From positions 1 to 21,013 of the IMG/VR virus record IMGVR_UViG_3300017749_000171: 21,013 nt of DNA. One strand, given 5' to 3'. The notes beneath the pieces are model-generated. The model was given only the letters and a program-made list of their open reading frames with translations, did no database searches and had not been told where the DNA came from. This stretch comes from a virus. Below, piece by piece: positions 401 to 20,294 of this stretch. A program made the position numbers and the translations under genes. Positions within the stretch are counted from its first letter, which is position 1. Each line of letters begins with the position of its first letter.

Positions 401-3400
401 TCACAAAGCCCTTAACCTTCTATTTTTTGTTTTTTTCTTAGGTTGTTCGATGCTAACACCTAAACCAAAGAACTCTCCACCGAACTCAGTAATGATTTCT
501 CCTGTCGTTGCATCTTCTCTCCAGTTTTGATAAGCACTAGAAGCTGTTAAAGGGAAAGCTCTCTCTAATATAATTTCCGGGATGGTTATTTTTTCTCCAC
601 TAACATAACGTTTGCCACCTATTGCTTCTAATGATCCACTAATCCAGGGGGAAGCTTTATATTTAACAAGTGTATTTATAGTTTTAGTAGGTATATTAGC
701 AGTTACTTCCTCACCTCTAATCTGTTTAAATATGCTATCCATGTACAATGAAAACAATCGTTTGTTAGGCCCAAGCCCTGCCCATATATCAATTTTCGTG
801 TTTCCAAATGTTATCTTTAAAAAGTCAGATTCTTCTGGCTCGTCTAAGTTAACTGATCCTCCCGCCATAATCGCAAGCGTAAAGGTTACAGCCCCCATCC
901 CATACAAAGCTAAATATTGTTTTGCAATTTCTTTTGCAACTTCAGCATCACCTTCTTCTTTACCTCGTATACCTTTTCCTATTTTGTAAGCAGCTTCTAA
1001 TGGCATTAAAAACCTAGATGCGGCAAAACGTGGAGAGAAAGCCAATACTGATAAAGCTTGGATTGCACCCTCTGCGTTACCTAAGTCACCTCGACCGCTA
1101 CTAGTGTTAATCCAATGTGCATAAGATTTTAACTCTCTTTCCGTAGCTTTAGGGTTGGCATTGTAATATATATCAAAAGCCCCTGCTCTCATTAGATTTA
1201 AGAATACAACCATGTTTCTTTCAGATGCACCCATAACAGTTTCAACAGTTTTACCATACAATCCAGTGTTTTTATATATCCACTGCAATGCGTTTGAACT
1301 AAACTGCTCTTCTGAGTCAATCATACCAGTATCTAAATTACCAAAAAACAAACCTGATTGTTCTCTAATAACTTGAATATCCTGAGACTCTAGTTCCATC
1401 ATTACTTGTTCAGCAAATTCTGGGTCTACAAAAGCTTTTATTGCTTTAGACATAGCCTGGGCTGCTAACTTAGGATGCCTAATAGCTAAACCAAACCCTT
1501 GTTTAAGAAATCCAGACATATCACCTGTAGCCATAAAGGCACGACCTAGTGACATAACATCGCCAAATTGTTCTAACTTAGTTCTTGGTTTAAGCTCTTG
1601 TATTTTCTTTCTAATAATACGTTCGTTAGCTCTCTGCTCTGTTAGTAACGCTTTTAACTCCGGGCTTTGTATTTCACTTTTTTCTTTGGGAGTCATAAAG
1701 TCAGATAAATCATTTTCATCAATAACTCTACGTTGCTCTTCAATTTTAGCAGTTACTTGAGCTATTCTTTTTTGCTCAAATTCAGCTTTCTTAATTTGCC
1801 TATACCACTCTTGTTGTTTAAGTTCTTCCTGAAGGTTATCTATAGTTTCAGAAAATTCTGTTTCGTCTTTAATTTGACGGTTAGCTTTCTCAGGCAACAC
1901 ACCTGTTCTTAATATCTCACTAAGTTCAGCTATTCTATCTTGCTGTTTAATTAGTCGTTGCTGCTCTTTTATAGATTTTTGCGTATCGTTTATCTCTGCT
2001 TGTTTACGAGGTGCTACATTGTCTCTATACCAACCCTCAACTTGGCCTATCAAAGACTCTAACCTAGCTTCTTGGTCAGCTTTTATTTGTGCTTTCTTGG
2101 CAGCATCAGATTTGCGCTTTTTCTCATCTTTTATTTCTTGCTCAAGATTAGCTATCTCGATTCTTAATAAATCTAATCGTTCTGATTGTGCTTCACGTTT
2201 AATACCAGGTATTACAGGAGGTTCTCCATACTCTATAATTTGTTTTAAAAGAACTATTTTATCAGCAGCTTTAAGTTCTGCTCGCTTAACAAACAGTTTT
2301 TGTTCAACAGCTTTTACATCTTCTCTCTTTTTCTTTGGCTCTTTCTTTGGAACTAAGTCTGTAGATCGTTCCCCTTTAATTAATACTTCATCTATTAGTT
2401 TTTCTAAGTATTCGATCTGAGTTAACATACGCTCAATTTGTTGAACATCGTTAGCGTTCTGTCTAGCTACAGATTTAAGTTCGTTAAGTTGTTCCCTAAG
2501 AGCCATTATCTCTAGGTCTTTAGGTGCTTGCTTTCTTAATGGATCAAATATTTTATCTAAGCCATTATTAATTTGAACCATTAAATCAGACTGAAGTGTT
2601 AGTCTTTTTAAAGTGTTTTGAGCTTCTGATGGGGTTTGTGGTATTCTTTGTATACGACCAGAGATTGAGCCAAGAACATCTTTTAAGCTAACGTCTGGCA
2701 ATAATCCTCTTATCACATCTACAATTTCATTAAGATCATCATAGCCATCTTCAATAACAAGTATTCTAGCCATCTCTCTTATGTTTCTTGCTAGATCAAC
2801 AGATATATCTGCAAGTTGGTTTTTACCAAACCCATCAATATTTACGCCTGACTCACGCATTTTATTGATTAATCTTTGTTTATTAGACAACTTTTGCTTT
2901 TTGACCTTGCCTCGTTGTTTTTTATTATCATCAATAAATTTTTTGCTATTAGCAACGTCTGTCTCAGAAGAGTTAGCAGATTCTTTTCTTATAACGTCTT
3001 GTATTTTATTATTTGTTTCTTCCCACTTACTTTGGGCATCAAGTACATTCTTTAAATCTTCGTCTTTAAGAGTTCCTCTGGCGGTTTGTGTAGCTCGTTT
3101 TGTTACACCTTGCACAGAGTAATCTTGCCCAACCATTATTCTTCTAGCGACTAAGGCACTACCCGCCTTTGAGCCTCCTTTAGCATCAGCTCTTAAAATT
3201 GTGTTCATAGCCGACAGTATTTCTTCCATGGTGTTAGGCAAATCAACATCAGTGCTATAAGCTTTACCTTCTTCTATGGAAGTTCTAACAAGCTCGTATT
3301 GGTTTTTAAGTTTTACAATAGCTAGAACAAAAGAAGCGTGTTGAGCATCTGTATGAATCATATCATCAGAATCTAAAATTTGTTTTGCTAAATCTAAAAC

Positions 3401-6400
3401 CTGGTTTAAATTAAAATCTCTAGCAGCATTTGCTACCAGTGTTGTTTGTCTTTGAGAAGCGGGTAATGATAACCCGGCAACTCCTATAGCTTTTAGAAGT
3501 CTATCTATTTCCATGTGTGTTAATTTAGTAGACCCAATAATACGCTCTTCATCCCTAATAAAGTCTTCTTGATACATAGGCCCATTATAAAAGTCTTCTT
3601 GACTTGGTATTGGCATATCTTCATCAATTTCTTCTAACGGAGCTTCGTTTATATCATCAATGATAGCTTTAGTTTCTTCTTTTGATTTATTTAATTTATC
3701 ATTATCTATTTCAGCTAATTTTTCATTAATGTAATCATCACTTAACTGAGGCTTACCAATCATAGGCTCAATAAATTCTCTAGTAATTACACCTTGAATA
3801 CCATTTCCAAGAACAGCTCGATTCAAACGTGTGTTATCAGACATAATTGTATCGGTAGGTAGATTCATGTACGCCAAATACATTGGTGTAGTGCCACGTT
3901 TAAATAAGAACCCTGTACCATAGTAAGCGTCATTAATTTGTTTAACGGAAGCTCCATACTGTTTAGCTACAGCTTTTGCCCCTAACTCATCTACTAACTT
4001 ACGCACAGGAAGTGCTACACGCATAACGGCAGATGAACCATATAAAGAACCATCTTCTGTTCTTAACTTTTCTTTTACCCCTTGCTTTCTCTTTTTAGGG
4101 TCATAAATAAAGTTAGCCGTTAACGCATTACCTGCTCTACCTTGAGGTCTAAACTGACCATCGCCTCCAGGATTAACATAAGCTACATTTGCATCATATT
4201 TTTTAGATGCTATGTTATTTAATAAATTTACTACATTTTTAGTTAAACCGCCTTCTTTTCCACCTGTGTATTGCATTAGCTCATCAACAGGAGCTTCTTT
4301 TAAGAAAGGTTCTAAAGCAGGATACCAATCGCCTGATCTGTTAGTCTTAGGCTCTTCTTTTAAAGGAGTAAGCGATGCTTGAACAATTAAGCGTTTACGA
4401 CTAGAGTTACCTCCGTAGTTTTGAGCATCAGGAGTTTGTTCCCGAATAAAGTAACCTTCTTTTTCTAATACTTTTTTAATAACTGCATATTGTTCTGAGT
4501 CTTGATAAGCAGGAGCATTTTCTATAGTCAAATTATCAGGTTTTACTATTGTAATAATTTCAGCTAACTTGCGGGCAATCTTCATTTCAAGTTCATACAT
4601 CTCAGGAGTTACTGCGCCTTTTTCTCTAGCTGCGCTAAATGCTTGGCATGGTGGTGACATATGTATAAATTTAACCATCTTTTTAACAAGATCGTTAGGG
4701 TCTAGCTCTAAAATATCAACAGGAATTTCAGCAGTGCCGTGAGTAAGATTGTATAAATCAATAATAGGTTGCTCAAGTTCTGCGGTTTGAACAACATTAA
4801 TGCCTGCTTTTCTTAATAATGCAGCTTCAGCAGTACCCATTCCTGCAAAGAAAAATGCTGCTTTTACTCTTTCGTTTTCATCTAATTGGAATTTAGCATC
4901 ATCACGAAGAATACCTAATGCTTCTTTATGTGATTCTTTTTGCAAACGGAATTTAGGATGATCTAGTGTTACTATTTCCGGGTTCTTAGCAAATACTAAT
5001 CCACCGATCTGCACAACTTCGTTTGCACTAAGCACAGGCATGCCAACCTTATTGCCCTCTCTAATATAGAAGAACGAGCGTCTGAAGGGGTTAAATCCAA
5101 TCTGAATCCAGTTAGGATCATTTATTACTTGTAGACCTAAGTCATAGTTTTCTTGGTCTGTAGCCTCTATGTACTCACCTCGCATTGTAGATATTGAGTC
5201 TTTATTTTTTATACCTATAGCAATTTTAGCTGATGTTATTGCCGGTGATACCATTTCAACATTTTTAGCTCTAGCCGTTGCTTGATAAGATATAGGTTTA
5301 AAATCTTTTGCGTTATGAATTGTTACTACATATTTACCTACACGATTGCCTTGCTTGTCTTTTTTTGTGTAAGCAGGAATATCTAATCGTAACTTTACTA
5401 TTTCACCTTCTTTTGGTCGTTTGTTTACTTTAGGTCTTTTAGGTTCGTCTAGAACATCTTTCATCTGCTTGGCAGTTGGTAGTTCTGGCAGTATATCAAA
5501 TCTACGAATAGGATCAAACTTTTGCTGTATCTCTACAAACTGCTCGTATGTAATCTCACCTACAAAGTAACGCTTAATAGCTTCTACCACCTGAGGTATG
5601 CGATCAAAGTTAAGCATATAATCTGATGATAGTTGCGACTTGCCTTTTACCATAACACGCAAAGGTGCAACAGAAACACCCGCTTGTTCGGGAAATACGT
5701 TTAACCTTCTATCTTCTGGAATAGGTTTGCCAATAGATATATATGATTTATCTTTTTGTTGTTGAACGTCAGAAAAACCATCTATTTTATTATATCTATC
5801 TTTTAATATATGAACTACTGGTCTGCTTCCATTTTTAGATGCAACAACAAAAGGATAAGATTCGTGTGCATTAAATGACTCTGGTGTTTTTAATAATTCT
5901 ACAGGGCCATTAATTTCTATAACAGCATATATTTGACCACCTGTTAATCTATTAATAGATGGTTCGCCTGGTATAGAGTTTTTTAACAAAGGTTCAGTTT
6001 GAAACTCTGAAAAGAAAGCCCTTCCTTTTACTCTTAAACTTTTTGCGCTTTCTGGTTTTTTAAGTTTTTCTGGCTGTTCGTATTTAATACTGTTATATAA
6101 ATCAAATAATGCTTTTTGTAGTTTAGGGGCTTTCTCTGCTTGATCGGCTAGACTGTTAATCAAACCAAGAGCAAAGTTTGATCTTTCTTGAAAATTAGAT
6201 TCAAATGCACCTAATATTTTTTTGATAACACTTTGATCATTGGTATTTATATTTAAAAAATCGTTAGGCTTACTTTTGCCCATATATTTTCTGCTAGTAG
6301 CGTCTATTAACGCTTTATTTAATTGCTCTTGTGTTAATGGAAAACTTGGGTCATTTACTAAGTTTTGTAATGTATCTAAAACGCCTAAAGAGCCTATAGT

Positions 6401-9400
6401 AGAAGATAACTCTTTTCCCCGACGTGCGGACGATAATCCCATTAATATAGTTCCGCCATTAGCTTCTATCATAGAGTTTAAGTTTTTAACAAACCCTTGC
6501 ATATTGGTGTCGTCGCCATCTTTGCCACTACCTGCCCAAAAATATCCTAGCTCATTAAATAATAACGGAAAGTTAACGCCACCTTTACCTCTAACAAGTA
6601 CAACGCCATCACGCTCAATTGTTCCTGCAAAAGCTCCATCAGGTTGATGTACTAACATAAACTTATCATTAAAGTCTCTAAGGCTAAAATTACGAGTAAC
6701 ATAACCATCTTCTTCTAGCTGTTTAAATTGTTCTCTATCAATATCGTATGAGAAAGTCATACCTGTATCTGGGTCAGTATAAGACTGTTGGAATTTACTT
6801 GCAGGGTATTGAGTCTCACCTTCAGATTCATATCCTGGAATAGAATCGTATTCGCTTAGTATCTCATCAAGTAATGATACATCTTCTTTAAATATAGTTT
6901 CACCACGTTCTACTTTACCGGCTATAACTTCTAAAAGCTGAATAGCTCTTGCTTCATCTGAAACGTTAATAAATCCTTTAAATATACGAGCAAGAAAATC
7001 TTGTATTCTTGACTTTAAAGATCGTTCAAATACAGGCATTCCCTCACGCATCATTGCCGCAAATTCAGCTAACTGTTCTTCTTTAAGATCAACTAACTGA
7101 TCGTTTCTGATATATAGCGATCTAAACTTGGTCATTCTAGCTCTAGCTTGAGGAGTTAGTCTAGCAGAGCCTAACATATCATCTAAAATACGAGCAGCAG
7201 CATACCTAATAGCCGCATCACTTTTTAATCTAGAGTGAAAAATAGCGTGTGTACTTTCATGAGCTAAACTTCCTGCATTCGCTCTTTTAGGATTAACTAA
7301 AATAGTCCCATCCATATCGTAAAAAGCTCTAGCTATATTCCCGGTTATTTCTTTAAAGTTTTGATCATTAGCTGCAAATTTAACTTTAATGTTAGGAACA
7401 ACGCTTTTTAATATATCAATTAATTTTTGAGATTGCTCGTTAGCTCTTGGATTTTCTGATGTAAATTCTGTTGCTTTAGCTTTTGCTTCTCGTTGTTTTA
7501 AGAATTTAGCTCTATCGGCTTCTACTTCTGCTCTAATAACAGCTTTTGTTCTGCCTTTTCCAGATAATTTTATTCCTACATCTTTAGCGTATTGTTTTAT
7601 TTCTTCCCAAGACAGTTCTCTTTCATCCTCAGACTTTTCGGTTTCATCCTTGTCAATTTTAGTTCCACGTTTTTTATAAATTTCTTCAACGCTTCTCTTA
7701 CGGCCATCTTCTATAGACTCGCCTTCTTCTAAAATAATACTTTCGTCATGTTGACCATCTAAAACTTGTTGTACAAATTTTTCTAAATTATCAGGTAATT
7801 CATATTGCTCATTGATAGGTTTAGTAGTATCTATAGTTTCATCGCTTTCATCGACTTCAGCAATAACTCCTAATTCATTTTCTGGTTCATCTTCTGGGGC
7901 AGAATCTTCTACCATTTTTTCGCTTTCATATCCTAAAATAATATCGTTGTAACTTTTACGAGCCTCCATGTCACCATAAACAGCATTAACAAATATAGGA
8001 GCGGCTTTTGGATCAGCAATTAAATTACTCAATTGTTCAGCGTTATATTGTAGAGCTAATCTATCAAAATCATTATTCGTTAATATCTCGCCATTAGCTG
8101 TGATTAAACCTGTTTCATCATGCATGCGTTGAGATTTTTCTATCTCTATTCTAGCGGCTTTAGCTAAATCAATTTGTTCAGTATCTAATCTAATTCTTTC
8201 AGTAACTGCTTCGTATTCTTCTCGATTAGATGCTGCATTTGCTAAGTCTCTTGCATACTCTTTGGCTCGTGGTTCATCAAAACCAAACTCAAGTAATCTT
8301 TCAGTGTTACTGTTGATGAAATTTTTAGTAGCAAAACCTCTTCGCAATGTACCAGGAAATGCTGATATAAAAGAAATACGACCCGCCATTAATGCGCTTT
8401 CGCCCATGCCTTCAGTAATTTTAACTTTCTTTGCAGTAGTGCCGTATTTTTCGTTAGAATAATCAACAGCTAAATTATATATAAAATTATAAGCACCTTG
8501 TTGAACAATTTCTTCACCTATGTTTTCAGCAGTTAAAATGCCTATCTTTTTAAGATGACCACCAAGTGTGTTGATTAACTCTCTTTGTTTCTTCTTAACA
8601 AATTGTCCGCCAGTTTTAGCTATAACTCTATTTTGATAATACTCAACAATCCCGGAAGCTATTCCGTAAGCAGAAGCAAATAACTCAGCCTCTTGTCTTT
8701 TTTGATTTAAAATCTCTATATTAGGGTTATCTTTACCAATAACACTTGGTACTCCAAATAATTTTTCAAAGTTTGGTAACTCTGCTCTTTTTTCAATAGT
8801 CATCATTAACGGCATGCCTATTTGCGGAGGTAAAGTTCCTAAGACTAAATTAGGCGTGTTAGCTAAAAAAGCATCAAAAGCAGCTACAAGATTAAGAGGA
8901 TTTTCATCTGCGGCACTAACATAAAGCTCTGTAAGATTGTCACGCATTTCTTGGCTAAGAAACTTTGAGTTTTCATCAACAGCCGATTGTGATTCAATCA
9001 TAAGCTTTCTTAAAGCATCTCTATCAAATCCACCTTCAATTGTGTATGTCTCGTCAATTCCTTCAGGAATAGTGTTGTAAGAATTAATTTCTGCGCCAAT
9101 AAATTCTATTAATTGAGCAAATGCTCCTAAAAAACCAGTAGCTCTCTCTCCAAAAGTAAAATCTTCAAAATCTCCTGTATAGTGTTGATCTTGAGCTTTT
9201 AAGTCTTCATTAATAGAAAAATAATCAATATCTTGTTCGGGATCAATTCCCCATGACGTTCTAATATAAGAATCAACTTCTTGGTCGGTCATGTCTTGAC
9301 CTTCAGCCCTATATGAAGCTCCGTATTTACTTCTTATAAAATTCCTAGTTTTTACCCTTTGTTCTTCAAACATACCATCAGCAGTTGAATAATACTCCCG

Positions 9401-9517
9401 CTCATCTGTGTTTGCCTTTTCTATTAGGTTTACGTCTAAGTAATCAAAAGGTCGGACGGTATTATCGGGTTTTACAACTCGTAACCCAACGTCCTCATTA
9501 AACTTTAATTCGTCCAT
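401..9517 (-). CDS. Giant polyvalent internal virion protein with DNA methyltransferase (T7 gp16 position)
   Basis: This 3038-residue protein (roughly 340 kDa) lies after gp14-like and gp15-like genes, where T7-type phages encode the ejected protein gp16. Seen in order: N-terminal region with amphipathic and hydrophobic helices (about 115-400); acidic linker (about 560-630); HeH/SAP-like segment (about 632-672); metallopeptidase-like domain with HESTH at 753-757; unassigned region with GKGGVNFP (about 975); a segment with PFRRSFFYIREG (about 1475), a pattern I recall from other phage polyvalent proteins; cytosine-C5 methyltransferase (about 1548-1920); charged coiled coils (about 2200-2640); and a C-terminal region (about 2650-3000) with GMGAVTFTLAIMAGG and SDFLKITFGNTKIDIWAG, resembling the C-terminal domain of polyvalent proteins. 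No soluble-lytic-transglycosylase motif like that of T7 gp16 was recognised. ATG follows the previous stop by one base, with AGGA upstream. Ejection into the host is inferred from position. Confidence 0.88.
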   Translation of the reverse strand: MDELKFNEDVGLRVVKPDNTVRPFDYLDVNLIEKANTDEREYYSTADGMFEEQRVKTRNFIRSKYGASYRAEGQDMTDQEVDSYIRTSWGIDPEQDIDYFSINEDLKAQDQHYTGDFEDFTFGERATGFLGAFAQLIEFIGAEINSYNTIPEGIDETYTIEGGFDRDALRKLMIESQSAVDENSKFLSQEMRDNLTELYVSAADENPLNLVAAFDAFLANTPNLVLGTLPPQIGMPLMMTIEKRAELPNFEKLFGVPSVIGKDNPNIEILNQKRQEAELFASAYGIASGIVEYYQNRVIAKTGGQFVKKKQRELINTLGGHLKKIGILTAENIGEEIVQQGAYNFIYNLAVDYSNEKYGTTAKKVKITEGMGESALMAGRISFISAFPGTLRRGFATKNFINSNTERLLEFGFDEPRAKEYARDLANAASNREEYEAVTERIRLDTEQIDLAKAARIEIEKSQRMHDETGLITANGEILTNNDFDRLALQYNAEQLSNLIADPKAAPIFVNAVYGDMEARKSYNDIILGYESEKMVEDSAPEDEPENELGVIAEVDESDETIDTTKPINEQYELPDNLEKFVQQVLDGQHDESIILEEGESIEDGRKRSVEEIYKKRGTKIDKDETEKSEDERELSWEEIKQYAKDVGIKLSGKGRTKAVIRAEVEADRAKFLKQREAKAKATEFTSENPRANEQSQKLIDILKSVVPNIKVKFAANDQNFKEITGNIARAFYDMDGTILVNPKRANAGSLAHESTHAIFHSRLKSDAAIRYAAARILDDMLGSARLTPQARARMTKFRSLYIRNDQLVDLKEEQLAEFAAMMREGMPVFERSLKSRIQDFLARIFKGFINVSDEARAIQLLEVIAGKVERGETIFKEDVSLLDEILSEYDSIPGYESEGETQYPASKFQQSYTDPDTGMTFSYDIDREQFKQLEEDGYVTRNFSLRDFNDKFMLVHQPDGAFAGTIERDGVVLVRGKGGVNFPLLFNELGYFWAGSGKDGDDTNMQGFVKNLNSMIEANGGTILMGLSSARRGKELSSTIGSLGVLDTLQNLVNDPSFPLTQEQLNKALIDATSRKYMGKSKPNDFLNINTNDQSVIKKILGAFESNFQERSNFALGLINSLADQAEKAPKLQKALFDLYNSIKYEQPEKLKKPESAKSLRVKGRAFFSEFQTEPLLKNSIPGEPSINRLTGGQIYAVIEINGPVELLKTPESFNAHESYPFVVASKNGSRPVVHILKDRYNKIDGFSDVQQQKDKSYISIGKPIPEDRRLNVFPEQAGVSVAPLRVMVKGKSQLSSDYMLNFDRIPQVVEAIKRYFVGEITYEQFVEIQQKFDPIRRFDILPELPTAKQMKDVLDEPKRPKVNKRPKEGEIVKLRLDIPAYTKKDKQGNRVGKYVVTIHNAKDFKPISYQATARAKNVEMVSPAITSAKIAIGIKNKDSISTMRGEYIEATDQENYDLGLQVINDPNWIQIGFNPFRRSFFYIREGNKVGMPVLSANEVVQIGGLVFAKNPEIVTLDHPKFRLQKESHKEALGILRDDAKFQLDENERVKAAFFFAGMGTAEAALLRKAGINVVQTAELEQPIIDLYNLTHGTAEIPVDILELDPNDLVKKMVKFIHMSPPCQAFSAAREKGAVTPEMYELEMKIARKLAEIITIVKPDNLTIENAPAYQDSEQYAVIKKVLEKEGYFIREQTPDAQNYGGNSSRKRLIVQASLTPLKEEPKTNRSGDWYPALEPFLKEAPVDELMQYTGGKEGGLTKNVVNLLNNIASKKYDANVAYVNPGGDGQFRPQGRAGNALTANFIYDPKKRKQGVKEKLRTEDGSLYGSSAVMRVALPVRKLVDELGAKAVAKQYGASVKQINDAYYGTGFLFKRGTTPMYLAYMNLPTDTIMSDNTRLNRAVLGNGIQGVITREFIEPMIGKPQLSDDYINEKLAEIDNDKLNKSKEETKAIIDDINEAPLEEIDEDMPIPSQEDFYNGPMYQEDFIRDEERIIGSTKLTHMEIDRLLKAIGVAGLSLPASQRQTTLVANAARDFNLNQVLDLAKQILDSDDMIHTDAQHASFVLAIVKLKNQYELVRTSIEEGKAYSTDVDLPNTMEEILSAMNTILRADAKGGSKAGSALVARRIMVGQDYSVQGVTKRATQTARGTLKDEDLKNVLDAQSKWEETNNKIQDVIRKESANSSETDVANSKKFIDDNKKQRGKVKKQKLSNKQRLINKMRESGVNIDGFGKNQLADISVDLARNIREMARILVIEDGYDDLNEIVDVIRGLLPDVSLKDVLGSISGRIQRIPQTPSEAQNTLKRLTLQSDLMVQINNGLDKIFDPLRKQAPKDLEIMALREQLNELKSVARQNANDVQQIERMLTQIEYLEKLIDEVLIKGERSTDLVPKKEPKKKREDVKAVEQKLFVKRAELKAADKIVLLKQIIEYGEPPVIPGIKREAQSERLDLLRIEIANLEQEIKDEKKRKSDAAKKAQIKADQEARLESLIGQVEGWYRDNVAPRKQAEINDTQKSIKEQQRLIKQQDRIAELSEILRTGVLPEKANRQIKDETEFSETIDNLQEELKQQEWYRQIKKAEFEQKRIAQVTAKIEEQRRVIDENDLSDFMTPKEKSEIQSPELKALLTEQRANERIIRKKIQELKPRTKLEQFGDVMSLGRAFMATGDMSGFLKQGFGLAIRHPKLAAQAMSKAIKAFVDPEFAEQVMMELESQDIQVIREQSGLFFGNLDTGMIDSEEQFSSNALQWIYKNTGLYGKTVETVMGASERNMVVFLNLMRAGAFDIYYNANPKATERELKSYAHWINTSSGRGDLGNAEGAIQALSVLAFSPRFAASRFLMPLEAAYKIGKGIRGKEEGDAEVAKEIAKQYLALYGMGAVTFTLAIMAGGSVNLDEPEESDFLKITFGNTKIDIWAGLGPNKRLFSLYMDSIFKQIRGEEVTANIPTKTINTLVKYKASPWISGSLEAIGGKRYVSGEKITIPEIILERAFPLTASSAYQNWREDATTGEIITEFGGEFFGLGVSIEQPKKKTKNRRLRAL
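3758..4876 (-). other. Cytosine-C5 DNA methyltransferase domain inside the giant protein
   Basis: Residues about 1548-1920 carry C5-methyltransferase motifs in canonical order. These are motif I FFAGMGTAEAAL (Met1560; S-adenosylmethionine binding), an acidic ELEQPIIDLYN after it (motif II), VDILELD (III), SPPCQAFSAARE (IV, with catalytic Cys1624), IENAP (VI, Glu1666-Asn1667), SSRKRLIVQA (VIII, Arg1707-Arg1709) and LGNGIQGVITREF (X, from Gly1904, in place of the usual GNAV/GNSV). The roughly 190 residues between VIII and X would hold the target recognition domain. A clear motif IX (RxxTxRE) was not found there. The key catalytic residues are present, so activity is likely. The target sequence cannot be read from the protein. 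Confidence 0.9.
6968..7450 (-). other. HExxH metallopeptidase-like domain inside the giant protein
   Basis: Residues about 696-849 have the form seen in zinc peptidase domains of phage polyvalent proteins. A beta strand TILVNP is followed by NAGSLAHESTHAIFH, with His753, Glu754 and His757 as the HExxH zinc-binding and catalytic residues. About 60 residues later EEQLAEFAA (813-821) offers Glu818 as a plausible third zinc ligand, as in gluzincin-type enzymes. A short basic amphipathic helix, RIQDFLARIFKGF, closes the domain. Possible substrates are the giant protein itself, other virion proteins or a host protein. The sequence does not decide between them. Confidence 0.72.
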
Positions 9518-9518
9518 A

Positions 9519-11222
9519 TTAATCCTGAGTAGCTTCTATTATTTCTTGTTCTAATGAAGAAAACACTGGCTGTGATCTTTGATATTGAGTGTCACTTTCG
9601 GTTTGTATATAAACACCAAGAGTTTTATTTAATGCTACATCCGCTCTATATCTTAAATAAGGAGCAAATGTACTGTTAATAAATTTAAGTATTATTTGAT
9701 TGTTAGCATCACTAGCTACCAGGTTGCCTTTACTGTCATATTCTAATTGCCCAAATCGACGAGCAGTAGCTGTAATAGCCGCTTTTGCGTCTTCTCTTTT
9801 TTTAGCAGCTTGATATGCTAACATTCTTCCAGTACCACCAAAAGCATTTATAGCTTGCTCTGGACTTCCAGTACCACCAAAAGCATTTATAGCTTGCTTT
9901 GGAGGTTTTTCTGTTCCTAAACCCATTGCTGTTTGTTTTTGGTTTTTTAAAAAGTTTAATAGTTGGGTTTTAGTTTCTATTAAATCACGATTCTTTTTAT
10001 ACATAGGCATAAATGCATTTGCATCGTCATATGTTTTCCAAAATGCCGCCCAAACTTCTCTAACATCGTCTGAGTAAACAGATTTATTCTTTGCTCCCTT
10101 TGCAAAAACATCAAACCCTTGAGTTGTTTTCATCCCATCTACTACTAATTCTAGATAATGATTTTTTAATACACTATCCATATCACTAGTAATAATTGTT
10201 GTTAACAAGGTGTTAAAAGATTTTTCTGGGTTTGCGTCCTCTCCAGAGAATAGAGTTTTTATATCGTTATCTAAGACTGTTAAATCTTTAATAGAAGTGC
10301 CTTCTTCCTCCTGGTATGTTGCTTGTAACCCAGCTAATTGTTTTTCATACTCAATCATTAATCCATTAACTACTTCTGGATTACTAATATTTAAAGCTGC
10401 TATTTTTTCAGGGTCTAGTTCTTCTTCTTTAATTAGTTCAGCCGCTCGGTCAATAGCTTCAGCTTCTTTGTTTATAAAATATTGTTTATGAGCTTCATTC
10501 ATTTTTGACTCAATAGTCATTTGATCAAGTTTAGGCATGCTGTTAAAACGATCAGAAGATTTAATATCATCTATCTCAGCCTGAACTGTTACCGATTTAG
10601 CTAGTCCAGAAAAATAACTGACGTTAGCGGTACTAATAAATGTATCAGCGGCAGTTTTTGTAATATAGCCATTAGTAACCATATCATTAATACGCTGAAC
10701 GCCATCTTCGTATCTGTTTTCAGTCATAATCATAAGGGCGGCTTCTTGCTGTATGTTTGCTACATGATTTTCAGTAGCTTTCTTGACTCGATCAACACGT
10801 TCCATCTTAATCATATTGCTAAAGTCCATATCAGCAGTCTCAAGGATACGGCCTGCAACACGCTTAGAGTAGCCACTATTTAAAAGACCATTACGAAACT
10901 CATTTATCTTAGGCTGTAATACCTTTTCTTCGTAATTTTTATAACCAACGCTAGGGTCTTCAAGAGCTTTTTGTTTCTCTAATATCATATCGTTCTGGAA
11001 CTCTACCATACGTCTACTAGCATCAGCTACAGATGATTCATCTTCTAATGTCTGAAACCTTTCTATGCCTTTTTGAACACCCGCTCCAAGGTTTTCTATG
11101 CCTCCTGCAATATCATCAGCGATTTGACCTATAGCTTGTATCTCAGCAGATGCATCATACATTACACCAGGTGCTTGATCACTTATTCCTACTTGTTGTT
11201 GATATAATGGTATTTTTGGCAT
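9519..11222 (-). CDS. Internal virion protein, T7 gp15-like
   Basis: This 567-residue soluble protein is predicted to be mostly helical and to belong to the internal core that is ejected and helps DNA cross the cell envelope. It begins MPKIPLYQQQVG, a form of N-terminus common in podovirus gp15-like proteins. It continues with long Glu/Lys/Ala-rich helical stretches and has no catalytic motif or membrane segment. Near residues 440-465 it contains two copies of a 13-residue repeat, QAINAFGGTG plus a short linker. A longer frame opens upstream at 11264, but it would lie inside the gp14-like gene. The ATG at 11222 is preferred because AGGAAGA stands seven bases before it and it follows the upstream stop by one base. 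Placement between gp14-like and the giant gene supports the assignment. Divergence is high, so the family name rests on position and overall character. Confidence 0.78.
   Translation of the reverse strand: MPKIPLYQQQVGISDQAPGVMYDASAEIQAIGQIADDIAGGIENLGAGVQKGIERFQTLEDESSVADASRRMVEFQNDMILEKQKALEDPSVGYKNYEEKVLQPKINEFRNGLLNSGYSKRVAGRILETADMDFSNMIKMERVDRVKKATENHVANIQQEAALMIMTENRYEDGVQRINDMVTNGYITKTAADTFISTANVSYFSGLAKSVTVQAEIDDIKSSDRFNSMPKLDQMTIESKMNEAHKQYFINKEAEAIDRAAELIKEEELDPEKIAALNISNPEVVNGLMIEYEKQLAGLQATYQEEEGTSIKDLTVLDNDIKTLFSGEDANPEKSFNTLLTTIITSDMDSVLKNHYLELVVDGMKTTQGFDVFAKGAKNKSVYSDDVREVWAAFWKTYDDANAFMPMYKKNRDLIETKTQLLNFLKNQKQTAMGLGTEKPPKQAINAFGGTGSPEQAINAFGGTGRMLAYQAAKKREDAKAAITATARRFGQLEYDSKGNLVASDANNQIILKFINSTFAPYLRYRADVALNKTLGVYIQTESDTQYQRSQPVFSSLEQEIIEATQD
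9826..9903 (-). repeat. Two tandem 39-base repeats inside the gp15-like gene
   Basis: Two direct copies of a 39-base unit (9826-9864 and 9865-9903) differ by one base. Each keeps the reading frame and encodes 13 residues containing QAINAFGGTG. Near identity at the DNA level points to a recent duplication. Confidence 0.93.
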
Positions 11223-11223
11223 T

Positions 11224-11781
11224 TTAAGGTCTTCCTGGCCCGGGGTTAATAACAATCTGAGCAAAAGGTGCTTCTGCTAGTAATGGGTTAAACTGTTCAG
11301 CAGGGTCAGTTGGAGTATACGCTGACGCTATCTTGCCTACACCAGACAACACCCCTGACAACATAGTGGCTCTTGCTTTTTGCTGAGATAGATAAACAGC
11401 GTTGCGACCTTCATATAGAGTCATCTCTTTACCCGATCTTGCGTGTTGTGCCTCAATCATTTTGTTTCTACGGAAGTTGTTTGCCTCTAAAGACATTTCC
11501 TCCATTTGCTCCAACATAACTTCTAATGGGGTATCTTCTGATATAACAGCCTTACTTTTAGCAAATGCTGCTCTTTGTGTGGCAGCCATTCTACGTTGAC
11601 TTCTACGCAAGCGGCCGCTTTCAGCCCTTGTTGCATACTCAATAGCTAACGCTTTATTTTCCATTAACTTAGCATTGTATTCAGCTTCTCGTTGCGATGC
11701 TGCACCCTGCGCTTTAGCGGCTCTTGCTGAAATGCCCGCACTAGCTATTCCTGTTATTGCTCCTACTATTGCCCCAAACAT
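11224..11781 (-). CDS. Internal virion protein, T7 gp14-like
   Basis: This 185-residue protein is close in length to T7 gp14 (196). Its N-terminus, MFGAIVGAITGIASAGISARAA, is a small-residue hydrophobic segment able to enter a membrane. It is followed by a long Ala/Glu/Arg/Gln-rich helical region rich in RR and AKA steps, and a Gly-rich C-terminal part (LSGVLSGVGKIASAYTP). In T7, gp14 forms an outer-membrane channel after ejection, and a similar role is inferred here. The gene starts at the TAATG shared with the stop codon of the gp12-like gene, with GGAG about nine bases upstream. Its 3' end carries the ribosome binding site of the gp15-like gene, so the two are probably translated together. 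Confidence 0.8.
   Translation of the reverse strand: MFGAIVGAITGIASAGISARAAKAQGAASQREAEYNAKLMENKALAIEYATRAESGRLRRSQRRMAATQRAAFAKSKAVISEDTPLEVMLEQMEEMSLEANNFRRNKMIEAQHARSGKEMTLYEGRNAVYLSQQKARATMLSGVLSGVGKIASAYTPTDPAEQFNPLLAEAPFAQIVINPGPGRP
11230..11236 (-). promoter_or_regulatory. Ribosome binding site that fixes the gp15-like start
   Basis: AGGAAGA on the minus strand stands seven bases before ATG at 11222, inside the last codons of the gp14-like gene. The alternative ATG at 11264 has no comparable signal and would need a 41-base overlap, so 11222 is preferred. Confidence 0.75.
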
Positions 11782-14700
11782 TATCTTATACTCCCTGTGT
11801 CAACGTGCGGTGTCATAGAAAGGACAGTACACGGCTGTGGTTCATCACTTACAACATATACAGTTTGCAAGTATTCTGGTGCGTTAGACATATATGCTTC
11901 TGCTGTCTCAGAAACCATGCCTGTGCCTGCAAATTTAACAGGTTGTAAATCAGAAGATGCTTCAGTTTGCCCTGTTTTTGCGGTAACTGTATCTTTAAAT
12001 CGTAACGTAGCTATTGAAGCATTTAACTTAGAGCCACCAGTTTGACCACTTCTGGTTATGTAATTTAAATATAGCGGTGCTAATACGCCTGTGTATTCTT
12101 TACCTATAACCACTCGTGAGTAAGTAGAATCACCTAGTTTGTATACTGTAGCTTTACTAGAACCAGATGTTGTGTATGTTTCGGTGCTACCAGTTAGAGC
12201 GGTTGTAATAACGGTTGTACTCGTAATGCTTCCAGACTCTAAAAAAGATTTACCATTAGGGTCTGTTGTACTGTAACCTAGACCACTAACATTGATAGTA
12301 TCACCTTCAGCCAGGCCGTGTGGAGCAGAGAAGGTAAGAACTAAGTTGTTGCTAGTTAGTGAAGCACTACTAATAGCAAGATCAGCAGAACTACCAATGT
12401 TTAAATCACCATCCGTGTCCACTACACCAGTAAATGTTGTCGTACCATCTGCTACAACTTTGTATGTTTCACCAATAGCGTAGTTGTAATTCCCTATAGT
12501 GCCTGTCGATAGGTTTGTAACTATGGTGTAGTAGTCTAACCCATTGTACTGTGTTACATAGTTTGTACCCCACTCTCTGTTATCGAGCTTGCAAATGTAA
12601 CGAACATCTGCGCTGTTAACTGTTAGCTTAATAGAAACATAAACGGCATCTGCCCCACTAGCTGTAGGCAACACAGTTACGCTTTCAAATGCACCAGTAC
12701 ACTTATGTCTATGCCAACCAACTACTTTCTGATCACGCTCGTATGTCATACCTACAAGTTCGTTATCGCTATTTATAGTCCACACAATGTTGTCTGGTTG
12801 CTGTTGTAGCGCAATAGCTTGAAACCCTGTGCCTGCAATGTGTTCAGCAACAAGCGTTAAGTCTGGTGCTACATAGTCTTGTGAATCAAAGTTAAATACC
12901 CACTCACGTAGCTTCTTACCTTGTCTCATAACAAACAATACAGCAGAGTTTACCAATAGGCCTGCTATTGAGTTAGAGCCGTATGTTGTTTTACGCTTAA
13001 TATCAAACGATGTTGGTGTTACAGGTCTATTGTCAGACTCTGCTCCTAACGACCACTCACTTCCTGATGTTCCTATAATTAAAGCTCGATGAGGAACAAG
13101 CCATTGTATGCCATCTAACTGACCAGATGCAATAGTTAGCCTCATTGGTGAGGTATCTAGTGTAGCTGTTTTAAAGTTAAAAAAGTTGTCCGTTTCGCTT
13201 AACCATAAAGTGTTTGGATTGTTAGGTGTACCTGCATATACCAGTCTACTTTCAAAAAATGCGAGTGTGTCCGGAAATCCTCTATAGTTAGAAAACGCAC
13301 CTTCAGACCATCTGCTCATTTTTGGCTGTACTTCATACCAATGTCCGTCAGATAACTGTGTATTAAAGTCATCTGTGTTATTTTGAAGTACTTGTTCTAA
13401 GCATTGATAATATTTAGAAGTAGTAACAAAGTTGTATTTCTTAATAACACCTGTTGTATCACCCACCCAAAACAACTCACTATTATCCGTAGAATTATCG
13501 TAAAATGAAGCTGTAGCTATAGTAGAAGGGAATTCACTTATTAAATTAAAACTACCTGCACTAGTAAATGTTGGTGTGAAAAAAGATATTTTATTGTTTT
13601 CTTTATCTATGCAATAAATCTGATTAACAGATGCATCACTAACGCCAGTAATATCTGTTATATTTGCAGTACCGCTTGGCCCTTCAACATTAGCAGATGT
13701 GCCAAGAGGAATATTAAAGTCGTATGAAAAACTTTGTGAATAAAGTTGAGTCTCAGATTCATAAGAACCAGTTGATCCATATTTTCTAATGGCTACCTTT
13801 GTATTAAAATCTAAGTCGTCCCTAGTTTTATAACCATATCTATGTTGTGCCGTCATTACGCAAGATATATAAAACTTGCCATTCAATACGCCTATACTTC
13901 TTGGAATGGTAATGTCTTTAAAAGTTCTATTTGGGCCTGAAAAAGAATAAGGTGTAGCTTCATCTGATAGAAACTGAACACCATTGCTTCCGTCTATGTC
14001 ATATTTAAAAACCTTAAATCTTTCAAATCCGCTTGTCGATGATCCAGCGTTGTAAAAAGTTTCAGTCTTAGCAGTTATACCACCTAACACATATACATGA
14101 TTACTATAATATGCAACATCAAGACCTGTATTATTACTAGAATCTAAATTACTCGCAGTCCATTGGTCGTATGGCATAAAGTTGTCAGAGCTGTCTTTTG
14201 TAAATACATGAACAAGTCTATTTTGATCTATAGCAAAGTATTTAGCATCACCGTATGCACCACCACGTAAATTGTCCATTCCACCAGATGTAGTAACCAA
14301 GTTGACATTAAACGTTAAGTTAGCCGCACCACCACCGCCTAATGCAGAGTCTTGAATTGTAAATGTATCGTCCTCAGCGTAGTTCTTACCGGAAACACCA
14401 AGCATTGTAACAGTAGCTGCACCAGTTCCCGCTGCTACCACTACTCTTATTCTAGCTCCAGTACCAGCACCTGTGTTAGCTATTCCAGTTGTAGTTCCGT
14501 CTACGAAATCATAAGTGCCTGCTGTTCTACTTGAGTCTGCTGCGCTAACTGTATCTACAGTCGATAGTATTCCTGTGAAAGTAGATAGGTCTTTTGATAC
14601 ACTTGCGTACTCTAAACCGCCTTGTATTTGTATTTTATCGTTTACAGCAAACGCTGTGCCTGACGCCCAAGATGTTGTGTAATCGCCAATAGAATCTTGA

Positions 14701-15707
14701 AAGTCAGATATTACTGCTGCAACCACTTGTGTAGCTGAGGTGTAACTTGTAATTCTAACTAATGAGGTTACTGTTGTGTTGGTAGGTATAAGTGAAAATT
14801 GGAAGCCAGTATGTCCGCTAAAGGTAACTCCTTTTTCATACTGAACACGTAAAAAGGTATTGTTACCTTCTGGAGACGGAGATGAAACTGAAAAGTTTTT
14901 TGCGCTTGCTGACGTACTTATTGATGAGGTGTCTGCAACTGTAATATACTCAGAAAAGCTAACACCTCCATCGAGACTTCTGTCAATACTTACTCGACCA
15001 TTCCATATTCCACCAGTTTCAAAATCCCAATCTGTGTTGGAAACATTTATTGATGCACTTACAAAACTATCACTTGATTTTTGTTCTAAACTTAAATTAT
15101 TACTTAACCTAGGTGTTTCAAAAGAAAAGTAACCACCAACCATATTGGAGTTAAATAAATCTTGAGATGCAGTTAATACTGTTTCTCCAGATTTACTAGA
15201 TGTAGTTATTCTAATAGTTGAGTCTGTGTTCTCATTAAGTAGTGGTGGGAAATTCCACTGTACTTCACTCATAGACCAAATGGTGTCACTTAATCTTTTT
15301 ATTTCTTGTGGTGCATAATTTTTGTGGGCAGTAAACAATATGTCTGCTGATTGCGTAAACTGTATATCATCCAAGTCGGCTGTAGTATAGGGTGATGTCA
15401 AAAGTATGTCAGCTCCACCGCTTTGATGTGGAGAGTCATTCTTCCATACCCGGACATATTGGTTACCAAACTCAAGTAGGTAGTTTTCGGTTACACTAAA
15501 TGTAAATGGAATTAATCTTACTTTCCCAGAGTGAGATGTGCCAAGAAATTTAGTAGCAGGTCGTCTGGTCGCACCACCATAAGGCAGAGGAATAAAGTTC
15601 TCCATCTTCAAACAACTCTTGTTGTAGATTCCGTCTACGTCTTCACGGGCATATAGGTATGGAGAAACCTCACCACCATTAAAATTGTTTATAGGTAGCT
15701 TGGCCAT
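11781..15707 (-). CDS. Tail nozzle protein, T7 gp12-like, enlarged
   Basis: This 1308-residue tail tube/nozzle protein starts with the hallmark FNGGEVSPYLYAREDVDG (residues 9-26), followed by MENFIPLPYGGATRRPAT. That opening is typical of podovirus tail tubular protein B or 'stabilisation' proteins. The second conserved block is at about 830-960: WLSETDNFFNF, GTSGSEWSLGAESD and KLREWVFNFDSQDY. The C-terminus (QPCTVLSMTPHVDTG) also fits. The protein is about 500 residues longer than T7 gp12 (794). Extra material includes a Gly/Ala/Thr-rich module at about 400-467 (IANTGAGTGARIRV to GGGGAANLTFNV), a region at about 480-780 with VYVLGG and repeated aromatic strands, and a module at about 1105-1180 with APHGLAEGDTINVSG. 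It overlaps by one base (TAATG) with the genes on both sides, implying coupled translation. It probably forms the distal tail that meets the cell surface. Confidence 0.86.
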   Translation of the reverse strand: MAKLPINNFNGGEVSPYLYAREDVDGIYNKSCLKMENFIPLPYGGATRRPATKFLGTSHSGKVRLIPFTFSVTENYLLEFGNQYVRVWKNDSPHQSGGADILLTSPYTTADLDDIQFTQSADILFTAHKNYAPQEIKRLSDTIWSMSEVQWNFPPLLNENTDSTIRITTSSKSGETVLTASQDLFNSNMVGGYFSFETPRLSNNLSLEQKSSDSFVSASINVSNTDWDFETGGIWNGRVSIDRSLDGGVSFSEYITVADTSSISTSASAKNFSVSSPSPEGNNTFLRVQYEKGVTFSGHTGFQFSLIPTNTTVTSLVRITSYTSATQVVAAVISDFQDSIGDYTTSWASGTAFAVNDKIQIQGGLEYASVSKDLSTFTGILSTVDTVSAADSSRTAGTYDFVDGTTTGIANTGAGTGARIRVVVAAGTGAATVTMLGVSGKNYAEDDTFTIQDSALGGGGAANLTFNVNLVTTSGGMDNLRGGAYGDAKYFAIDQNRLVHVFTKDSSDNFMPYDQWTASNLDSSNNTGLDVAYYSNHVYVLGGITAKTETFYNAGSSTSGFERFKVFKYDIDGSNGVQFLSDEATPYSFSGPNRTFKDITIPRSIGVLNGKFYISCVMTAQHRYGYKTRDDLDFNTKVAIRKYGSTGSYESETQLYSQSFSYDFNIPLGTSANVEGPSGTANITDITGVSDASVNQIYCIDKENNKISFFTPTFTSAGSFNLISEFPSTIATASFYDNSTDNSELFWVGDTTGVIKKYNFVTTSKYYQCLEQVLQNNTDDFNTQLSDGHWYEVQPKMSRWSEGAFSNYRGFPDTLAFFESRLVYAGTPNNPNTLWLSETDNFFNFKTATLDTSPMRLTIASGQLDGIQWLVPHRALIIGTSGSEWSLGAESDNRPVTPTSFDIKRKTTYGSNSIAGLLVNSAVLFVMRQGKKLREWVFNFDSQDYVAPDLTLVAEHIAGTGFQAIALQQQPDNIVWTINSDNELVGMTYERDQKVVGWHRHKCTGAFESVTVLPTASGADAVYVSIKLTVNSADVRYICKLDNREWGTNYVTQYNGLDYYTIVTNLSTGTIGNYNYAIGETYKVVADGTTTFTGVVDTDGDLNIGSSADLAISSASLTSNNLVLTFSAPHGLAEGDTINVSGLGYSTTDPNGKSFLESGSITSTTVITTALTGSTETYTTSGSSKATVYKLGDSTYSRVVIGKEYTGVLAPLYLNYITRSGQTGGSKLNASIATLRFKDTVTAKTGQTEASSDLQPVKFAGTGMVSETAEAYMSNAPEYLQTVYVVSDEPQPCTVLSMTPHVDTGSIR

Positions 15708-16654
15708 TATTCAAAAGAGCCATAAGAAGTTTGTGAAAAAGGTGGCCAGGAGTTTGATAATGAACTTGGAGATATAACAGTAGCTTCTAACCACTCGCTA
15801 TCAAGCGTCGGGGCTTCTAATCTTTCAAATCCATTAACTCGTCTTGCTTCTGGCAAAATAACGCTATTTATTTCTTCTAACAAACTAATTTCAAGTTCAC
15901 GATCTCCTGTAATCGGAACGGCCAGCTTCATTGCCAACATTGTGTAAAAGGTTTTTGCAAACAAAGAATCCATATCTTCTGGCAGAGGAATTGCATCATA
16001 ACATAAAAACAATCTAGGCTCGTTTGTTAAAATAGAATTTCCCTCACGAACCCAATCAACTCTTGGTTTAATATAATTATATACAGCAGAACTATCTGTA
16101 ACATAAAAAGATCGTTCAGCATCTGTAGGTATTCTGTATGAATAGTCGTATTCAAACTCTGGCTTTACTATAGCAACGGTATATACACCACCACTATATA
16201 AAGTAAACGGATTATATCCAGTATATGTAGGGCCGTCTGGCGGTGAAGCATTAGCAACATTATTACCATTATTAGCACCATAAGTAATAGACCACTTTCC
16301 TGCCGTATCATTAAATGCTAAATTAATATAACCATTTTGACCACTTGTGCCTGTAGTGTATACAGGTCTTCCATTAGAATCTGTAGATGTTGCCGTTAAA
16401 ATCCCACTAAATCCACCAGCAGCTAATGTTGAAGCATTCGGAGTAAGTTCAATTTTAAATGCGCCTACTTCCGTTCGCTTCTTACAACAGTTCCAAGAGT
16501 GCATTCGTGCAAGCTCTTCAAGAGTTTGGTCGTAGTGTAACCTGGCTTGGTTGCCGGCTACTGTTGTGTCTGTATCAAAGTTGGTAATTTGAAGACGGTC
16601 GCTACCAATTTTAGAAAGTGCTAGGTTTGTAAGTACGACTTTTGATAGAGCCAT
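15707..16654 (-). CDS. Tail tubular protein A, T7 gp11-like, with inserted domain
   Basis: This 315-residue adaptor connects the portal to the tail nozzle. The N-terminal helical part (LTNLALSKIGSDRL, then HYDQTLEELARMHSWNCCKKRTEV, to about residue 63) and the part after PEFEYDYSYRIPTDAE (from about 163) match the gp11-like/tail adaptor family, which is usually near 200 residues. Between them lies an insertion of about 95 residues, rich in Gly, Thr, Asn and Tyr, with GRPVYTTG, GKWSITYG and PDGPTYTGY. This resembles small beta modules in phage tail proteins that may bind surface polymers. GGAG lies five bases before ATG. The gene follows a probable terminator at 16669-16698 and overlaps the gp12-like gene by one base. 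Confidence 0.84.
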   Translation of the reverse strand: MALSKVVLTNLALSKIGSDRLQITNFDTDTTVAGNQARLHYDQTLEELARMHSWNCCKKRTEVGAFKIELTPNASTLAAGGFSGILTATSTDSNGRPVYTTGTSGQNGYINLAFNDTAGKWSITYGANNGNNVANASPPDGPTYTGYNPFTLYSGGVYTVAIVKPEFEYDYSYRIPTDAERSFYVTDSSAVYNYIKPRVDWVREGNSILTNEPRLFLCYDAIPLPEDMDSLFAKTFYTMLAMKLAVPITGDRELEISLLEEINSVILPEARRVNGFERLEAPTLDSEWLEATVISPSSLSNSWPPFSQTSYGSFE

Positions 16655-17070: not shown

Positions 17071-18063
17071 TTAAGATTCTAGACAAGGAATGACAACAAC
17101 TTTTTCTTCTTCCATGCGGACAGCACCGAACTCTGCCTTCATGTAAGCGTAGTAGTTGAACGATTTATCAGCCCGCTCACTAATCTTAGAGGTTAGATCA
17201 GGGTTGATTTCCAACAATGCTGCATCAGGCATAAACGCATACGCAGTACGAGTATTTGAAGAGTTTGTGTTACTCCAAGTACCAGTAGTTGTGTTAATGT
17301 CGCTATCAGCAATATTGAAGTCAGCTTCAGTATATGCCGTATGCTTGTCCTCATCGAAGTAAGGAAGGATGTTGCTAATGCAGAACTTCGCACCCATGTA
17401 GTCGTAGATAGTTCCTACAGACTGATCAACTGGACGTTGAGAAGTGTAGTCGAAGTTGATGAAGTTATCATCATCCATCATGTCTTTCCATTGCTTCCAA
17501 GAAACCTTGAAGATAGGAGCTTGTGAGTCAATGTCTACATTGTTGCTTCCGAATTTTTCTAAAGAAGCCAAAAACTTCTTATAAGTGAAACCTTCAGCAG
17601 TTCCTGTAGCAGTAACATCAACGTCAACAAAGTTAGCGTCAGGCAAAGTTGTTGCTGAGTTGCCGTCAACTCCACCCTGAGCAGAACCCAAAAGAGCCTG
17701 GTCAAGAATGATGTCTTCCTGACGAAGAAACTTGTTCTTCATGATTTGCAATTTAGCATTGCGAGGATCAACACCCATCTTAGAAACATCAGCCCAGTCC
17801 ATGAACTGTCCATCTTGGTATGAAACCCGAGATGTCCGTCTACGACTGTAATCAATGTCTGATACAGGTGAGTCACCGAAACGATTGGTTACCTTCTGAG
17901 GAAGACCACCACCAGTAGTACGTTGATAAACGCCTTCTTTACGAAACAAGTCGCCTGTTGCGAGTTGAACGTAAGGACGAAGTTTACCGCCTTTGACTTC
18001 AACCGTCTCACGAATAGCCCGGTCAAAACCAATTACATAAGTATTAAGCAGATTTCCCGCCAT
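17071..18063 (-). CDS. Major capsid protein
   Basis: This 330-residue protein is the expected main shell subunit. It lies directly after a scaffold-like gene and before tail genes. The sequence has the style of podovirus capsid proteins with the HK97 fold: a basic loop-like region (DLFRKEGVYQRT to SRRRTSRVSYQDG, about 40-85), DWADVSKMGVDPRNAKLQIM (about 89-108) followed by a helix with RQEDIILDQALLGSA, and later YDYMGAKFCISNILPY and AALLEINPDL near the C-terminus. The fold is inferred, not shown. GGAG lies about seven bases before ATG. The gene has its own promoter and a leader of about 135 bases, consistent with high expression. A shorter minus-strand frame within it (17193-17393) is a shadow. 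Confidence 0.88.
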   Translation of the reverse strand: MAGNLLNTYVIGFDRAIRETVEVKGGKLRPYVQLATGDLFRKEGVYQRTTGGGLPQKVTNRFGDSPVSDIDYSRRRTSRVSYQDGQFMDWADVSKMGVDPRNAKLQIMKNKFLRQEDIILDQALLGSAQGGVDGNSATTLPDANFVDVDVTATGTAEGFTYKKFLASLEKFGSNNVDIDSQAPIFKVSWKQWKDMMDDDNFINFDYTSQRPVDQSVGTIYDYMGAKFCISNILPYFDEDKHTAYTEADFNIADSDINTTTGTWSNTNSSNTRTAYAFMPDAALLEINPDLTSKISERADKSFNYYAYMKAEFGAVRMEEEKVVVIPCLES

Positions 18064-20095: not shown

Positions 20096-20294
20096 CGTCT
20101 GATATAATCGCCTCGACATATCTATACAAGTCTTGCATTCCGTTACGATAGGCGCAGTCAGCATGAGTAAGATCAGCCCCCGCTTGAGCATCGATGTTGC
20201 AAAAATCTCTAAGATCATCTAATACCTCAGAACCTTCTGGCGTTTTAAACACACGTTTGTATGCTGATATTAAGTTAGATAACTCGTGTGACAT
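20088..20294 (-). CDS. Bbp19-like small head protein
   Basis: This 68-residue protein has the pattern YKRVFKTPEGSEVLDDLRDFC, then AYRNGMQDLYRYVEAI. From memory this is the signature of the Bbp19-like family of small proteins encoded beside the portal gene in many podoviruses (an R-V-F then G-x-x-V-L-x-D-L block, and an A-x-x-x-G-x-x-x-x-x-x-R block). Its role is not established. It starts at a TAATG shared with the portal stop codon, with AGGAG about six bases upstream, and its 3' end overlaps the lysozyme start by eight bases. An accessory role in connector assembly is inferred from constant association with the portal. Confidence 0.72.
   Translation of the reverse strand: MSHELSNLISAYKRVFKTPEGSEVLDDLRDFCNIDAQAGADLTHADCAYRNGMQDLYRYVEAIISDDE

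Follow-up and report, generated by a model that had tools for sequence, protein, structure and literature searches.

The window, i.e., the whole stretch of 21,013 nucleotides analysed here (positions 1 to 21,013 of IMG/VR record IMGVR_UViG_3300017749_000171), carries on its minus strand genes in the order portal, lysozyme, small basic protein, scaffold-position protein, capsid, small protein, gp11, gp12, gp14, a 581-aa protein and a giant protein. By its family matches, this is a T7-type virion block with the giant in the place of gp16. The following members were placed by match or by position:

20294..21013, minus strand: C-terminal part of the portal (head-tail connector), PF12236, E 1e-23; the N-terminal part is at the other end of the parent contig
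18241..19080, minus strand: scaffold-position protein, phrog_3742, E 2.9e-23
17071..18063, minus strand: major capsid protein, PF19821, E 3.2e-37
15707..16654, minus strand: gp11-like tail protein, 315 aa, phrog_394, E 5.1e-29
11781..15707, minus strand: gp12-like tail tube protein, 1308 aa, phrog_376, E 1.3e-146
11224..11781, minus strand: gp14-like internal virion protein, 185 aa, phrog_418, E 5.3e-15, and Pfam T7_gp14, E 0.014
9519..11264, minus strand: gp15-position protein, 581 aa, placed by position only, with no confident family match

The original prediction had put a methyltransferase gene at the T7 gp16 position. The presence of gp11 (phrog_394), gp12 (phrog_376) and gp14 (phrog_418) upstream bears this out, and the position is replicated in L153/G019 and, for a giant without the methyltransferase, in L043.

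The gp12-like protein, with its 1308 aa, is much longer than the about 712 of its PHROG, and its match falls in three pieces, which indicates large insertions. Inside the gp15-position gene, a head-to-tail duplication of 39 bp (window 9826-9903) doubles the stretch QAINAFGGTG in the protein. The lysozyme gene is located at 19505-20218, in the interval between portal and scaffold; no transglycosylase was detectable in the gp16-position giant. The parent record, G001, has a size of 38,465 bp and is 99.9% identical over the window. Its contig ends overlap by about 98 bp, with a few mismatches, inside the portal gene. Because both ends fall in this same gene and overlap, G001 is regarded as an essentially complete, circularly mapping genome.

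The giant is encoded in a single open frame with no internal stop, and a protein-identical copy of the 3038-aa ORF is present in IMGVR_UViG_3300017770_000043 (IMG/VR). Its regions are listed below:

401..9517, minus strand: giant gp16-position protein, 3038 aa, ATG start
6878..7420, minus strand: putative zincin metallopeptidase region, aa 700-880, with HESTH at 753 and EExxxE at 813-818
5645..6793, minus strand: conserved giant-protein module with the motif HQPDGAF...GGV, aa 909-1291, found in Elemovirus and 31 viral giants
4949..5602, minus strand: domain just before the methyltransferase, aa 1306-1523, matching the region of the G008 methyltransferase giant scored as Phage_L5_gp82
3758..4876, minus strand: C5-cytosine methyltransferase domain, aa 1548-1920, from PF00145, PHROG 116/363, AlphaFold2 and a PDB fold match
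749..1234, minus strand: C-terminal region, aa 2762-2923, common to the L035 giant (blastp E 8.5e-8)
404..442, minus strand: basic C-terminal tail QPKKKTKNRRLRAL, the end of the giant

The HExxH motif and the downstream Glu residues (EExxxE) of the zincin-like region are invariant in 22/22 relatives, and the region looks like a putative gluzincin; a fold search with the model of this region gave no significant PDB match and no solved relative. Residues 700-1291 recur in 31 further viral giant ORFs and, within the same residues, 31.8% identity is found with part of a 3667-aa Elemovirus protein. The latter carries the label 'structural protein', by annotation only, and the Baltic Flavobacterium phage paper contains no proteomics for it. 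The C5 motif is absent from the 31 other zincin-family giants. The carrier is an established virion-block protein, which holds an extra methyltransferase in the window phage. The domain at aa 1306-1523 is common to L010-L012, L025, L036, L037, L042 and the G008 giant, in which PF25735 matches aa 1905-2017 (Pfam, E 1.4e-5). It has counterparts in Roseobacter phages CRP-207 and CRP-9 and in a Manatee Spring podovirus, where the genes of the proteins that contain it lie between those of portal and capsid.

No match in phage records was obtained for the C-terminal 1118 aa, and neither the C-terminal part nor the gp14 and gp15 proteins have a PDB sequence relative. Hydropathy identified one strongly hydrophobic segment in the giant, near the C-terminus (aa 2868-2887) and inside the region common to the L035 giant. 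T7 gp16 likewise has a hydrophobic segment near its C-terminus and ends in basic residues, which are needed for infectivity (PMC8954989). The two proteins thus resemble each other in gene place (after gp11, gp12, gp14 and gp15), in the C-terminal hydrophobic segment and in the basic tail. On the contrary, T7 gp16 has 1318 residues vs. 3038 here, no transglycosylase domain was found in the giant, and no sequence similarity with gp16 was seen in Pfam, PHROGs or PDB sequences.

A C5 methyltransferase with motifs I, IV (PPCQ, Cys1624), VI, VIII and X in order had been predicted within the giant. All five motifs were recovered at the expected residues:

4835..4849, minus strand: motif I, FAGMG, SAM binding, aa 1557-1561
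4643..4657, minus strand: motif IV, SPPCQ, with catalytic Cys1624, aa 1621-1625 (PPCQ from 1622)
4511..4522, minus strand: motif VI, ENAP, aa 1666-1669
4391..4399, minus strand: arginines of motif VIII, RKR, aa 1707-1709
3794..3808, minus strand: motif X, GNGIQ, aa 1904-1908

Pfam PF00145 covers residues 1556-1736 (E 7.2e-18, 65.5 bits vs. a cut-off of 22), and the PHROG methyltransferase families 116 and 363 provide further matches, the latter reaching residue 1842. Aligned with 27 divergent viral relatives (18-25% identity), the window domain retains 7/7 of the columns that are invariant (F, G, C, S, E, R and R). The usual motif VIII of C5 methyltransferases is PQxRxR. In the window domain it reads SSRKR, with Ser in place of Gln, motif IX is weak, and an insertion of 40 aa near motif IX precedes motif X.

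An AlphaFold2 model, built from the alignment with these 27 relatives, has a pLDDT of 80.4 and a pTM of 0.80. It matches M.HhaI (2uyc) with an E of 4e-14 and a TM of 0.70 on the target, over the whole M.HhaI length and about 400 alignment columns. EhMeth and DNMT2 are fold matches as well (DNMT2 with an E of about 1e-14 over about 400 columns); at the sequence level, the PDB matches of the domain are two, EhMeth and S. pombe Dnmt2. A methyltransferase fold was thus obtained from structure prediction and fold search, the check proposed with the original prediction, and M.HhaI was matched end to end. Judged by sequence and model, the domain is a real and complete C5-cytosine methyltransferase, the match being far beyond chance, and DNA methylation is its predicted activity.

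The parent genome encodes a second METHYLTRANSFERASE, a standalone C5 enzyme of 468 aa with all motifs, at L005:9231-10637 (minus strand), i.e., parent contig 28231-29637, outside the window. Its C5 type is different (27% over 112 aa). An ORF over the same stretch, P0004 (L005:9269-10597), could be read from its match to phrog_1008 'DNA methyltransferase' as a lone target-recognition/methyltransferase subunit; this reading was discarded, since the ORF overlies the true standalone gene in the wrong frame. In the tail-fibre region, a 192-aa protein encoded at L005:3665-4240 (plus strand) weakly matches phage methyltransferases (phrog_15480, E 7e-8) and may be a third SAM-dependent enzyme.

A standalone C5 gene is present in 15/19 contigs (at least 40 kb) with a methyltransferase giant vs. 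5/14 with zincin-family giants without the embedded enzyme (Fisher p 0.029), an association that is suggestive only, as the two sets were not obtained in the same way. The co-occurrence argues for a task of the embedded enzyme that the standalone one does not perform. The standalone gene of the window phage also complicates a simple self-protection story: because of it, progeny DNA may already carry 5-methylcytosine, and a virion enzyme would then need another specificity or another job.

The tetranucleotide composition of G001 suggests past restriction. CGCG was found twice vs. 29.9 expected (Poisson P 5e-11) and is the most depleted tetranucleotide, while GCGC and ACGT are mildly depleted. 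Where expected counts allow the test, a CGCG depletion this strong was seen in 0 of nine comparison loci. The lineage has probably met restriction, and the avoidance suggests that neither methyltransferase protects this site.

Single-sequence viral scans returned nothing beyond the parent contig, so alignment-based scans were needed. A viral scan with the C5 alignment placed the embedded METHYLTRANSFERASE family at eight loci in giant ORFs, next to many standalone genes, and a follow-up scan aimed at the giant-embedded type gave 51 loci, 44 of them with a clear motif IV. These 'HASPVC'-type methyltransferases reside in ORFs of more than 1500 aa in 36/44 cases, the longest ORF being 6245 aa. 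A Pfam scan of 12 of these giants found PF00145 in all 12, ART-PolyVal in six, LPD13, LPD38 and LPD23 in two each, and ddrB-ParB in one; GNAT and InPase modules also occur in the clade. At E 1e-15, no member was found in 50,697 phage records, and at E 1e-5, annotated phages gave standalone-type enzymes only. One embedded-type locus lies in a Bacteroidota genome, that of Prevotellamassilia timonensis.

On the tree, the giant label requires 2 changes vs. a shuffled mean of 18.6. Grouping the window enzyme with the short or standalone ones was rejected (p-AU 0.003), a result to be taken with caution, as the branch of the window enzyme is very long (2.6-3.0 changes per column). Its nearest relative in the tree is G034/L172, in which the ORF with the methyltransferase also has an LPD38. 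The clade of the embedded enzyme is virus-restricted. Standalone phage C5 methyltransferases, such as that of Planktothrix phage PaV-LD, have the same catalytic domain (24-28% identity) but are free-standing genes of 300-480 aa, whereas the window enzyme clusters with the giant-embedded ones.

The whole arrangement recurs in an unrelated podovirus contig, G019/L153, with gp12 (E 8.6e-173), gp14 (E 6.4e-8), a 678-aa gene and a methyltransferase giant of 3320 aa; the gene after this giant resembles, by eye, a T7-type tail fibre N-terminus. L043 has the order capsid, gp11, gp12, a 245-aa gp14-like gene, a 571-aa gene and a giant of the same family without the methyltransferase. Three divergent phages have the giant at the end of the gp11-gp12-gp14-gp15 block. 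Among methyltransferase giants, a clear T7-type order was seen in the window phage and G019 only. Since phrog_376 is nearly confined to these two among the methyltransferase-giant contigs (G001 and G019, plus a marginal match in G033), most methyltransferase giants must reside in other kinds of phage.

The closest known counterparts are the polyvalent proteins and, among these, DarB of phage P1, an adenine-methyltransferase protein of the virion head that protects DNA in cis (PMC5512222; PMC12707154). Its mechanism is still argued, physical shielding having been proposed besides methylation (PMC12707154). Like the polyvalent proteins, the window giant is multidomain, has a metallopeptidase motif and adjoins virion genes, its very large ORF (3038 aa) uniting the methyltransferase and the HExxH...EExxxE region. 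Its clade relatives possess ART-PolyVal, LPD13/23/38 and ddrB-ParB, while no Pfam LPD or PolyVal model matched the window giant itself. Unlike the EcoKI- or TaqI-like adenine type of the polyvalent proteins, its enzyme is a C5-cytosine methyltransferase, and neither a SWI2/SNF2 helicase nor an LPD36 partner was matched in the giant.

DarB is, likewise, a large protein with a methyltransferase domain; it is carried by the virion and thought to act on the DNA that enters with it, a virion place that is predicted here. DarB, on the contrary, combines its adenine methyltransferase with a helicase in a myovirus head, whereas a C5 enzyme in a podovirus gp16-position protein is found here. The N4 virion RNA polymerase is another giant enzyme-bearing protein, ejected with the DNA and provided with a metallopeptidase domain (PMC5512222), but the enzyme differs, and the window giant has no RNA polymerase domain. 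In the main text of the polyvalent survey, the methyltransferases described are of the adenine type, and 'cytosine' appears in a reference title only (Iyer et al. 2017, PMC5512222). Within the main texts of the open-licence literature, no paper joining a C5 methyltransferase with polyvalent or ejection proteins was found, an earlier mention elsewhere being possible. Polyvalent proteins, DarB and gp16 are known; within this literature, a C5 methyltransferase in such a carrier is new.

The reading that we prefer, at a probability of about 0.6, makes the giant an ejection protein of the polyvalent type in a T7-like phage, with an embedded, active C5 methyltransferase that would block restriction on the DNA at entry, in a DarB-like way. 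From gene order and relatives, we infer that the 3038-aa protein would be part of the capsid core and would enter the cell together with the genome, as gp14-16 leave T7 with the DNA. The metallopeptidase-like region may process the giant on the way. The methyltransferase, presumed catalytic from its conserved residues and fold, would modify the DNA at or just after entry, ahead of any phage gene expression. Restriction would then be blocked at its recognition sites, a role suggested by DarB and the polyvalent context, so that the DarB strategy would be carried out with a different enzyme class and a different carrier. A broader scheme in two stages is tentative and somewhat less probable than its opposite: the C5 clade would occur almost only in giant virion-delivered proteins, usually beside a standalone C5 enzyme, with the standalone one marking progeny DNA and the particle-borne one acting in the first moments of infection.

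Ejection could also serve another target, with the methyltransferase directed at host DNA, for marking or for host gene expression, and not at the entering genome. The polyvalent neighbours in the clade include the host-directed modules ART-PolyVal, GNAT and InPase, and progeny DNA could already be protected by the standalone enzyme. A few ejected copies, however, would be faced with a megabase chromosome to methylate, and the DarB precedent acts in cis on packaged DNA, which makes a host target unlikely.

Activity itself could be altered or lost, because of the very long branch, the unusual motif VIII and the 40-aa insertion near motif IX. The domain might then have been acquired by chance and persist in the ejection protein as a non-catalytic segment with a structural or DNA-binding role, comparable to the C-terminal part of T7 gp16, which binds DNA without modifying it (PMC8954989). 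Against this, the seven invariant residues, the catalytic Cys, the Glu and two Arg among them, are all retained at 18-25% identity, the fold is M.HhaI-like over its full length, and the embedding recurs in dozens of viruses. A domain without catalysis is therefore rather unlikely.

Whether the giant enters the particle at all bears on a further alternative, a large late cytoplasmic enzyme modifying progeny DNA before packaging, in line with which the 'structural protein' label of the Elemovirus relative is an annotation only. This is improbable, as the place of the giant as last gene of the gp11-gp12-gp14-gp15 block is conserved in three divergent phages and the standalone enzyme already fills the progeny-modification role. 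Least probable by far is a DNMT2-like RNA (tRNA) C5 methyltransferase countering host tRNA-cleaving defences: the PDB sequence matches are EhMeth and S. pombe Dnmt2, and DNMT2 is among the best fold matches, but M.HhaI is as good a match over its full length, and the nearest sequence families are DNA methyltransferases, identity to all being too low to assign a substrate.

Restriction takes effect within minutes after entry, when phage genes are not yet expressed. A methyltransferase carried in the particle, as in the preferred reading, would be a direct answer to it, if true. The enzyme is of a different class, the carrier of a DarB-like kind, and the combination occurs in dozens of viruses, in two of them at the T7 gp16 position. 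With about 35 other uncultured viruses doing something similar, a kind of virion-carried protection from restriction enzymes that has not been described before is suggested. Modification at the entry stage is made testable by one well-understood catalytic cysteine and a mark that can be sequenced, 5-methylcytosine. If the reading is true, 5-methylcytosine in phage DNA or in just-infected cells need not stem from enzymes made after infection.
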